This document shows, piece after piece, positions 1-13,955 of a stretch of 22,218 nt of DNA. Origin of the DNA: a virus; the IMG/VR virus record IMGVR_UViG_3300017735_000115, positions 1 to 22,218 of that record; one strand, given 5' to 3'. The first letter of the stretch is position 1. Each line of letters opens with the position of its first letter. The notes under the pieces were generated by a model. The model was not told where the DNA came from. It did not search any database and saw only the letters and a program-made list of their open reading frames with translations. The position numbers were made by a program, and so were the translations under genes.

Positions 1-68
1 GTCAGAAATCCTGCGAAACTGTATGTATATATATCATTAGGTGACCTTTAAAAAAATTGCTCATTCAT

Positions 69-129
69 AGGGCTTATTAAGGGCTTATGAAGGGCTTGGT
101 AAGGGCTATGATGAAATCATTAAGGGCTT
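69..129 (+). repeat. Helically phased AGGGCTW direct repeats (iteron-like)
   Basis: AGGGCTT or AGGGCTA occurs at 69-75, 80-86, 91-97, 102-108 and 123-129. The first four copies are exactly 11 bases apart and the fifth lies 21 bases on, so all five would face roughly the same side of the helix. The flanked form AAGGGCTT is nearly self-complementary. Such arrays usually bind a protein cooperatively. Its position 160-220 bases before the small terminase gene makes a packaging site, an operator or an origin all possible. Confidence 0.75.
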
Positions 130-157
130 CTCTTATCTACTTATCTGTATACTTAAG

Positions 158-182
158 TACACCCTTCCTTGGGGGAAGTGTA
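158..182. other. Imperfect hairpin
   Basis: TACAC (158-162) pairs with GTGTA (178-182), and TTCC (165-168) with GGAA (174-177), leaving a two-base bulge CC and a five-base loop. No T-tract follows on the + strand, so it does not look like a terminator. It may be an operator or RNA structure. Confidence 0.4.
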
Positions 183-256: not shown

Positions 257-285
257 TTGACTGTCAAGTAAATTAACTCCAATAT
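257..285 (+). promoter_or_regulatory. Candidate sigma70-like promoter with embedded palindrome
   Basis: TTGACT at 257-262 resembles a -35 box. A 17-base spacer then leads to CAATAT at 280-285, a weak -10 box. The -35 box is part of a perfect palindrome, TTGAC-T-GTCAA (257-267), which could also be an operator. A start from this promoter would fall at about 292, on the first ATG (293), making the transcript nearly leaderless for that ATG or giving a short leader for the ATG at 311. Confidence 0.4.
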
Positions 286-292
286 CTTCAAT

Positions 293-835
293 ATGGAAAA
301 AGAGGAACTCATGAAGGAGATTACTCAAGCTATTCAAGAAGTAGCTTCTAAGAAGGATGCAATGCAGAAGAAGAGCATCAGTCGGTATAATCCGGAGAAG
401 GTAGCCGAGATACTATATTTGTATTCTGTGGGCAATAGCCAGACTAGGTTAATCAGGAAGTATGGCTTTGATAGGCATAGTGTGGTAAATGTATTGGTGG
501 ACTATGCTGATTACTTTGGTAAGTTCAAGGATATGTCAGGAGCTATAGCCGCAAAGAACTATATGAATCTAAGTAGTCTTGAGGAAGACTTGGTGGATGC
601 AGTCAGAGTAAGGATGGAGAATGGAGAGCTGGAGGTGACATTTAGGGATTTGAAGGAGTTGAGTATAGCTAAGGCTAACTCAATCAGAGAGGCACTTACT
701 GCTAGAGGTGAGGCTACTAACATTACTGAGGATCGTAAGGTATATACCCAGGATGACTATGATGAGACAATTAAGTTAGCTAAGGAGAGACTAAAGAAAA
801 TCAAAGGTGAGGTAATAGACATAGATGGCGATTAA
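293..835 (+). CDS. Probable terminase small subunit
   Basis: The 180-residue protein is likely the DNA-recognition subunit of the packaging motor, which selects phage DNA and passes it to the large subunit encoded two genes downstream. Residues about 35-70 (starting YNPEKVAEILYLYS) look like a helix-turn-helix, with a helical, charged C-terminal half suited to oligomerisation. Position and length fit small terminases; the family assignment rests mainly on context. The start is uncertain: ATG 293 has no ribosome binding site, whereas ATG 311 has AGAGGAA at 301-307 just upstream and would give 174 residues. The 3' end overlaps the next gene by 11 bases. The phased repeats at 69-129 could be its binding site. 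Confidence 0.7.
   Translation: MEKEELMKEITQAIQEVASKKDAMQKKSISRYNPEKVAEILYLYSVGNSQTRLIRKYGFDRHSVVNVLVDYADYFGKFKDMSGAIAAKNYMNLSSLEEDLVDAVRVRMENGELEVTFRDLKELSIAKANSIREALTARGEATNITEDRKVYTQDDYDETIKLAKERLKKIKGEVIDIDGD
301..307 (+). promoter_or_regulatory. Shine-Dalgarno-like AGAGGAA favouring ATG 311
   Basis: AGAGGAA lies three bases before an in-frame ATG at 311, six codons inside the longest reading of the small terminase gene. Few genes in this window have such a site, so it raises the chance that 311 is the true start or a second start. Confidence 0.35.
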
Positions 836-13150: not shown

Positions 13151-13234
13151 ATGCCACAAGGAAAAGGAACATATGGAAGTAAAAGAGGTAGACCACCTAC
13201 AAAGAGAAAGATGAAGAAGAAAGGTAAGTGCTAG
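13151..13234 (+). CDS. Very small basic protein of the GKGTYGSKRGRPP type, 27 residues
   Basis: The product is MPQGKGTYGSKRGRPP followed by a Lys/Arg-rich tail and one final cysteine. The motif GKGTYGS-x-RGRPP is, as I recall, recurrent among mini-proteins of marine phages; the RGRPP part also resembles an AT-hook that grips the minor groove of AT-rich DNA. The stop TAG overlaps the next gene's GTG start. Too short for most gene finders, but its junctions and motif support it. Confidence 0.65.
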   Translation: MPQGKGTYGSKRGRPPTKRKMKKKGKC

Positions 13235-13398
13235 TGGGTAAGTTATGTGCTAGAGGTAAGGCAGCCGCCAAAAGAAAGTATGATGTATATCCATCAGCTT
13301 ATGCTAACTCATATGCAGTTCGTGTATGTAAGGGGCAAGTTAAAGGCCCTGATGGCAAGAAGAAGACTGCTAGTGGATATAAGAGAAAGAAAGTATGA
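13234..13398 (+). CDS. Basic mini-protein of the YPSAYAN...VCKG type, GTG start
   Basis: The 54-residue product reads, in parts, GKLCARGKAAAKRKYDVYPS, AYANSYAVRVCKG and GPDGKKKTASGYKRKKV. The CxRGKAAAKRK, YPSAYAN and VCKG elements form a pattern shared by small proteins of large phages and giant viruses. It has two cysteines and a strong positive charge. The start is a GTG that shares one base with the TAG of the previous gene, and the stop overlaps the next ATG (ATGA). The ATG at 13247 is in another frame and is not the start. Function unknown; DNA or capsid association is plausible. Confidence 0.75.
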   Translation: MGKLCARGKAAAKRKYDVYPSAYANSYAVRVCKGQVKGPDGKKKTASGYKRKKV

Positions 13399-13631
13399 GC
13401 CTCAAAAGATGGCATCAAGAGAAATGGGTAGATATAAAAACTGGCAAGCCTTGTGGTAGAAAGAATATCGAGAAGAGCAAGCGAGGATACCCTGCCTGTA
13501 GACCATCTAAAAGAGTTAGCTCAAAAACTCCAAAGACTCAATCAGAGATGTCTTCGGCAGAGAAAGCAAAGTTCAAAAGAACAAAGACAAGTAGTAAAAG
13601 AATTTCATATCAACACAAAAGAAAGAAGTAA
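13395..13631 (+). CDS. Basic protein of the PCGR...CRPSKRVSSKTPKT type (DUF5872-like)
   Basis: The 78-residue protein has EKWVDIKTGKPCGRK near residues 9-23 and YPACRPSKRVSSKTPKT near 32-48, followed by a Ser/Lys-rich tail ending YQHKRKK. I recall this arrangement as the family labelled DUF5872, found in phages and large eukaryotic viruses, though I cannot check the number. Two cysteines and many lysines suggest a small nucleic-acid-binding or packaged protein. The gene overlaps the preceding one in ATGA and the following one in TAATG. Confidence 0.75.
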   Translation: MSLKRWHQEKWVDIKTGKPCGRKNIEKSKRGYPACRPSKRVSSKTPKTQSEMSSAEKAKFKRTKTSSKRISYQHKRKK

Positions 13632-13741
13632 TGGGTAAGGGGATGCAACCAAAGGCTGGATACAATCAAAAATTGTATGAACAGAATTACGATGCAATCT
13701 TTCGTAAAAAGAAAAAGCATGAGAAAAGAACACAAAAGTAA
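13631..13741 (+). CDS. Basic mini-protein of the MGKGxxPKxGYN type, 36 residues
   Basis: The product begins MGKGMQPKAGYNQKLYEQNY, continues DAIFRKKKKHEKRTQK, and has no cysteine. The MGKG...GYN...Y..NYDAIF pattern is, as I recall, common in small proteins of cyanophages and other marine phages. It starts on the last base of the previous stop and its 3' end overlaps the next gene by 23 bases. Function unknown. Confidence 0.7.
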   Translation: MGKGMQPKAGYNQKLYEQNYDAIFRKKKKHEKRTQK

Positions 13742-13955
13742 AAAAGGTGGACTAACTGCCGAAGGCAGAGCTTACTTTAAAAGAAAGACTGGTGCTAATT
13801 TAAAGCCACCGGTTACTGAGTCTAATCCTACTGGTAAAAAGAAAGCCAGAAAGAAATCATTTTGTGCTAGAATGTCTGGTGTTAAAGGGCCAATGAAAGA
13901 CAAGAAAGGAAGACCCACAAGAAAGGCATTAGCCCTTCGTAGATGGAAATGCTAA
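13719..13955 (+). CDS. Basic Cys-containing protein resembling DUF6321
   Basis: The 78-residue product contains GGLTAEGRAYFKRKTGANLK, PPVTESNPTGKKKARKKSFC and RPTRKALALRRWKC, the pattern I associate with DUF6321 proteins of phages and other viruses. I chose ATG 13719 because the recognisable family sequence begins there; an in-frame ATG at 13677 would add 14 residues encoded inside the previous gene and unlike the family. The stop is directly followed by the ATG of the large tail gene with no gap. Its two cysteines and heavy positive charge match its neighbours in the cassette. Confidence 0.75.
   Translation: MRKEHKSKKGGLTAEGRAYFKRKTGANLKPPVTESNPTGKKKARKKSFCARMSGVKGPMKDKKGRPTRKALALRRWKC

Follow-up and report, generated by a model that had tools for sequence, protein, structure and literature searches.

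Helically phased AGGGCTW repeats extend the right box of a conserved, terminase-linked element, a candidate packaging site of almost entirely uncultured phages

Few phages have a known packaging site, and sequence seldom makes one recognizable. Lambda-type cos sites consist of cosQ, cosN and cosB, the last with the small terminase (TerS) sites R3, R2 and R1 and an IHF bend site, and lie upstream of terS. The pac region of SPP1 and SF6 is composed of boxes A, B and C, and that of phage P1 of repeated TGATCA hexamers; operators of the PhoB/OmpR type carry 11-bp direct repeats at a -35 element. In lambda cos, the TerS sites are placed near terS at a set distance from cosN with a bend between them, and the spacing between the cut site and the TerS site matters (PMC4669245). 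At the SPP1 pac site, direct repeats extend over promoters and the start of the TerS gene (PMC4737164).

The window analyzed here, i.e. the whole stretch of 22,218 bp, is a late-gene fragment of an uncultured phage. It begins within a conserved element whose anatomy resembles lambda cosN-cosB and SPP1 pac in outline. As in lambda cos, a short GC-rich stretch (the 12-bp cohesive end in lambda, a 12-bp G-tract here) is followed at a fixed distance by bend-prone DNA and TerS-type boxes, and then by the terminase genes. Unlike in lambda, the short boxes have a different, unrelated sequence, the G-tract consists almost wholly of G, and one box is multiplied in helical phase in the window's lineage. 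As in SPP1 pac, direct repeats overlap promoter-like sequences and the TerS start, and element-bearing contigs assemble across the site, one of them as a circle, as would be expected of headful phages, whereas the rigid spacing of the parts across very distant phages is unlike SPP1. The array shares several copies of a short word with P1 pac but differs from it in the word, the spacing and methylation control. With PhoB/OmpR-type operators it shares direct repeats about one helical turn apart over a weak -35, although its first copy belongs to a terminase-linked element.

Among described phages, C75C1 (OQ984151) is the only full-length relative by large terminase (TerL), at 75%; TerL searches of the phage collection gave good coverage for C75C1 only, and partial matches in one Manatee Spring genome. 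The corresponding region of C75C1 is a divergent intergenic region, with early and replication genes running leftward and the terminase operon rightward. A consistent G-tract/A-tract element was absent in the distant TerL relatives Jasmine, Shocker, RHph_Y25, DS1 and several Manatee Spring genomes. As for the host, no TerL relative was found in the genome-contig collection, and literature searches on this phage or such a site returned nothing specific.

The initial annotation described five phased AGGGCTW copies in a non-coding region upstream of the small terminase gene, and this description holds. The copies start at positions 69, 80, 91, 102 and 123 of the plus strand, in three 11-bp steps and one 21-bp step, and end 164 bp upstream of the open reading frame (ORF) at 293-835. 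Across the window, AGGGCTW shows mild enrichment at most (nine copies against 4.75 expected; 6 of 100 shuffles reach nine), and its clustering is the striking part. When hexamers of any sequence were considered, the best one was helically phased within 61 bp in five copies, whereas more than three copies were never seen, either in 300 dinucleotide shuffles of the whole window or in 3000 shuffles of bases 1-292. For practical purposes the region is non-coding: a 53-aa ORF at 87-248 lacks a credible family match, and a stop interrupts the corresponding frame of L158. A role as a structured RNA leader was also rejected, the folding stability being like that of shuffles (z -0.55) and Rfam giving no match. 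AGGGCT arrays were likewise rejected as a widespread viral motif, since 11-bp arrays gave 51 matches in viral DNA and the reversed-pattern control 96.

Table 1. Coordinates of the element, the repeat copies, the promoter-like sequences and the terminase genes in the window
Feature	Position	Strand	Remarks
G-tract motif, last three bases GTC	1..3	+	alignment with L004 and L005; columns of 92 lineages
Spacer, fixed length, free sequence	4..30	+	gap-free across lineages
AT stretch ATATCATTAGG, consensus ATATATCATAAA	31..41	+	columns -26 to -16
Left box ACCTTT, consensus GSCCYT	44..49	+	columns -13 to -8
A-tract A7T (A-run 50-56)	50..57	+	nearly invariant columns -7 to 0
TTCA in place of consensus CTCA	64..67	+	columns +7 to +10
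Repeat copy 1, AGGGCTT; right box (consensus RGGSCTT)	69..75	+	columns +12 to +18
Repeat copy 2, AGGGCTT	80..86	+	lineage-specific
Repeat copy 3, AGGGCTT	91..97	+	lineage-specific
Repeat copy 4, AGGGCTA	102..108	+	lineage-specific
Repeat copy 5, AGGGCTT	123..129	+	where a -35 would fall, 18 bp before the -10-like TATACT
GTATACTTAAGTACAC, near-palindrome containing the -10-like TATACT at 148-153; candidate late promoter (P1) or operator	147..162	+	kept in close relatives
TTGACTGTCAAG, inverted repeat; possible -35 of a TerS promoter	257..268	+	just before TerS, in most close relatives
Predicted small terminase (TerS) gene, 180 aa, HTH and helical hairpin	293..835	+	
Large terminase (TerL) gene, 552 aa	1048..2706	+	phrog_2, E 4.8e-13

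Besides the fact that such arrays are not unusual in viral DNA, the initial annotation missed that the first repeat copy forms one end of a larger conserved element and that the window starts within it. Searches with TerS and TerL yielded a few hundred viral loci, and a common pattern was found upstream of TerS in 212 of 242 loci, the remainder being nearly all incomplete contigs. We aligned 92 lineages, less than 80% identical to one another, anchored on the A-run; four were false anchors devoid of the G-tract, and 88 were kept. Across these divergent lineages the element, about 85 bp from G-tract to right box, aligns without a single gap. Its parts follow in the order G-tract (GGGGGGRGGGGGTC), spacer, AT stretch, GSCCYT, A7T, CTCA and the right box RGGSCTT, with a few free bases between A7T and CTCA(T/A) in the consensus. 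Columns -67 to -55 of the lineage alignment read GGGGGGRGGGGG and T, mostly followed by C. The spacer between the G-tract and the AT stretch has zero conserved columns and yet a fixed length; the window and L006 are only 28.6% identical over bases 1-28.

In the window, the G-run proper (TGGGAGGGGGCAGTC in L004) falls just to the left of the first base, and a proper CTCA is also present at 60-63. TerS begins anywhere from -13 to +610 relative to the A-run, its start codon falling within the element in 17 lineages. A search of 23 whole records with the G-tract pattern matched 12 of them, each at one place directly upstream of TerS; the remaining records do not have that exact pattern. The left and right boxes look like inverted half-sites, but a stem formed by them gains no support, as no pairing co-variation was seen across the 88 lineages. 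In L055 the G-tract part is apparently lost, by deletion or an assembly join, and the A-tract, CTCA and right box are kept.

Since loci fetched with TerS and TerL could make this result circular, viral contigs were scanned blind to their genes for GGGGNGGGGGTC, 31-61 free bases and AAAAAAAT, which gave at least 120 matches. Among the matches listed, the spacer from G-tract to A-tract is 43-48 bp in 108 of 120 (67 after removal of near-duplicates), and the other 25 possible lengths together account for 12. A related TerL lies downstream on the same strand in 94 of the 108 listed matches with 43-48 bp, against 1 of the 12 with other lengths. Where an element-bearing contig among the matches listed contains TerL, the gene is downstream on the same strand in 95 of 97 cases. 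The element is therefore associated with the terminase.

Spacer length also follows the terminase lineage among the matches listed: 43 bp in a clade whose TerL is about 30% identical to that of the window, 47-48 bp in most lineages with about 41% identity, and 45-47 bp in the window's own family. The G-tract and A-tract are kept across these clades and the flanking boxes vary between them; in the 43-bp clade the element stands mostly 50-70 bp before TerL itself. Some TerL frames of that clade, as in L434, extend back over the element with a cysteine-rich N-terminal stretch, which gives a weak NinG match (E 0.006).

The ORF at 293-835 gave no PHROG match at E 0.001, and we assign it as the predicted TerS by its position, its size, a weak HTH_23 match and a predicted HTH followed by a helical hairpin. 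Such an order is the plan described for TerS (PMC9611059), and here an N-terminal HTH-hairpin is encoded close to TerL, two places before it. Among 13 relatives, the best HTH_23 match has E 3.6e-4, and HTH_7 matches at E 4.9e-4. The AlphaFold2 model, of moderate confidence (mean pLDDT 72.9), shows a three-helix HTH and then the hairpin. In the structural comparison, the solved G20c and P74-26 TerS appear at Z 3.8-3.9, among unrelated HTH proteins. The PDB contained no credible sequence relative of TerS and no relative of TerL, and Foldseek gave no match to TerS at E 0.001 in PDB or BFVD. In six lineages (L009, L010, L042, L095, L102 and L012), the element is separated from TerS by an additional gene, whose product of about 115 aa (MEYCSNFRYDLEVGQVAE...) has no Pfam match, and its IEIKRDMKAKETGNIFIEYESRGKPSGI gave us the impression of a nuclease.

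A partial Mantel test across 67 lineages compared the variation in parts of the element with that of TerS, with TerL removed. CTCA variation follows TerS (partial 0.30, a value reached in 0 of 300 permutations), as does that of the G-tract (partial 0.24), and right-box variation does not (partial 0.02). These correlations weakly favor TerS reading the element and give no specific support to its reading the repeated box.

The initial annotation had raised the possibility of a packaging recognition site. For the 85-bp element, this is the best reading: its tie to the terminase and its rigid spacing in very divergent phages suggest that it is probably the packaging recognition site. For the array, the suggestion fares less well, as it is a lineage-specific extension that abuts a promoter-like -10, most relatives having one copy. 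We propose that the repeats are an expansion, specific to this lineage, of the right box of a conserved packaging-initiation site (cos or pac), and place this proposal, with the full mechanism below, just short of an even chance. TerS, presumably a ring-forming HTH protein, would bind the boxes around the A-tract (GSCCYT, CTCA and RGGSCTT), and the DNA would bend at the A-tract and AT stretch. The bend and TerS would together keep TerL on the G-tract, a fixed distance away, and TerL would nick the concatemer there and start packaging toward the late genes. Right boxes 11, 11, 11 and 21 bp apart would stay on one face of the helix, so that they might provide extra contacts of the TerS ring with the wrapped DNA. 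Several observations argue against the packaging reading of the array: it contains no CTCA, most relatives manage with one box, the right box does not co-vary with TerS, and AGGGCTT arrays occur in the early intergenic region of L139 and L141, away from the element.

The contig ends bear on the choice between cos and pac. No single exact cut point or pile-up of ends at one base was found among them, many contigs cross the site, and at the array nothing pointed to a fixed cut. Near the G-tract, contigs start more often, in groups 77-90 and 109-133 bp upstream of it; we read these distances as common assembly k-mer lengths, which would make a branch of the assembly graph within the G-tract the probable cause. 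In contig G010 (36,025 bp), the two ends overlap by 77 bp up to a point immediately ahead of its G-tract, as in a circle cut there, a break that can originate from error-prone G-runs or from DNA ends. G010 and a second contig, G007, which closes on itself by 48 bp, would fit permuted or concatemeric DNA.

Judged by comparison of the lineages, copies two to five are a local, lineage-specific expansion of the element's right box. The extra copies extend toward TerS, the side where spacing is free. A single right box is found in L007, L039, L040, L046, L055 and L092, three copies in L158, five in the window and L006, and six in L005; the inserted lengths of 22, 54 and 65 bp are whole helical turns within about 2 bp. 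Between the window and L006, the array is 98.4% identical, compared with 83.6% for TerS, 76% for the next ORF, 79% for TerL and 29% for the spacer. Because the array is so much better conserved than the terminase genes, copies two to five are probably functional, the array being kept by selection or by recent exchange. The conserved block spans 57-185 and includes the array, the -10-like TATACT in its near-palindrome and a possible hairpin; since it reaches the promoter-like sequence, a promoter role is plausible.

A serious, though less favored, alternative, raised initially as a repressor operator, assigns the array to the late promoter P1 as its operator or activator array: a phage or host regulator bound to the 11-bp repeats near a weak -35 would control late transcription, the packaging-like element being a separate neighbor. 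Direct repeats of 11 bp at a -35 are typical of PhoB-type operators, and the array is conserved as a single block with the -10 palindrome and the hairpin. The last copy is 18 bp ahead of TATACT, a distance also seen in L007 and L039 that could reflect shared descent, and in L158, L092 and L046 the box is fused directly to TTGACA (AGGGCTTGACA). Copy 1, however, belongs to an element that tracks the terminase and not a promoter, and a TerS start within the element leaves no space for a downstream promoter. Moreover, a further set of boxes is absent from the early promoter region of the closest relatives, L005 and L006, no regulator was identified, and a simple scan gave P1 no score as a sigma-70 promoter.

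In L046, L047, L055, L092 and L158, a promoter-like TTGACA comes right after the right box, and no more than about 100 bp downstream a hairpin with a T-run resembles an intrinsic terminator, such as an antiterminated leader or a small RNA would have. This stretch is missing from the window's lineage. Between 212 and 268 of the window, a conserved GACATCATTATGTACAC is followed by the inverted repeat listed in Table 1. TerS itself has no clear ribosome site; the transcript from which it is translated may have a very short leader or none.

It is unlikely that the extra copies are a functionless minisatellite, produced by 11-bp slippage in one lineage from a single ancestral box. Near-identical strains do differ by exactly one unit (six in L005, five in the window), and 11-bp AGGGCT arrays in viral contigs are no commoner than the reversed control. 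Against slippage, the near-identity of the array with that of L006 contrasts with the 29% of the adjoining spacer and the 79-84% of the terminase genes, and a second lineage, L158, has three copies at the same place. An iteron-type replication origin bound by a phage initiator, also raised initially, is very unlikely: direct repeats do adjoin an A-tract and AT-rich DNA, and the region separates leftward early from rightward late genes in C75C1, but most relatives retain a single copy and no tandem repeats, the annotated replication initiation gene of C75C1 is about 4 kb away, and the element accompanies the terminase, in one clade directly before TerL.

Returning to the packaging reading, we tentatively suggest, and with some doubt, that a large and almost entirely uncultured phage clade shares a new class of packaging site. 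In such a site, the 12-bp G-tract would be the cutting site of TerL, set by lineage at 43-48 bp from an A-tract whose flanking boxes the cognate TerS reads, and some lineages would multiply one box in helical phase. A gap-free signature retained despite TerL identities of about 30% would make packaging starts predictable for uncultured phages, and would serve as a sequence tag for finding such phages and any satellites copying the site. By comparison of natural TerS/box pairs and natural copy-number variants, how TerS rings read DNA would become testable.

Arrays and small genes elsewhere deserve mention. The long AGGGCTT arrays of L139 (2324-2450) and L141, located some 1.7-2.5 kb upstream of TerS, have early genes of leftward orientation on either side and consist of 11-bp units, with 16-bp units in part of L141. 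L018-L032 carry a second helically spaced array, three to five copies of TATCAACGACTTA at 20-22 bp, about 640-700 bp upstream of TerS, which may be part of an early promoter or of an origin; L007 and L047 each have a single, inverted copy of this word. Further downstream in the window, a run of small basic ORFs (13228-13955) includes a lysine-rich 92-aa DUF6321 protein (13677-13955; E 2e-29).
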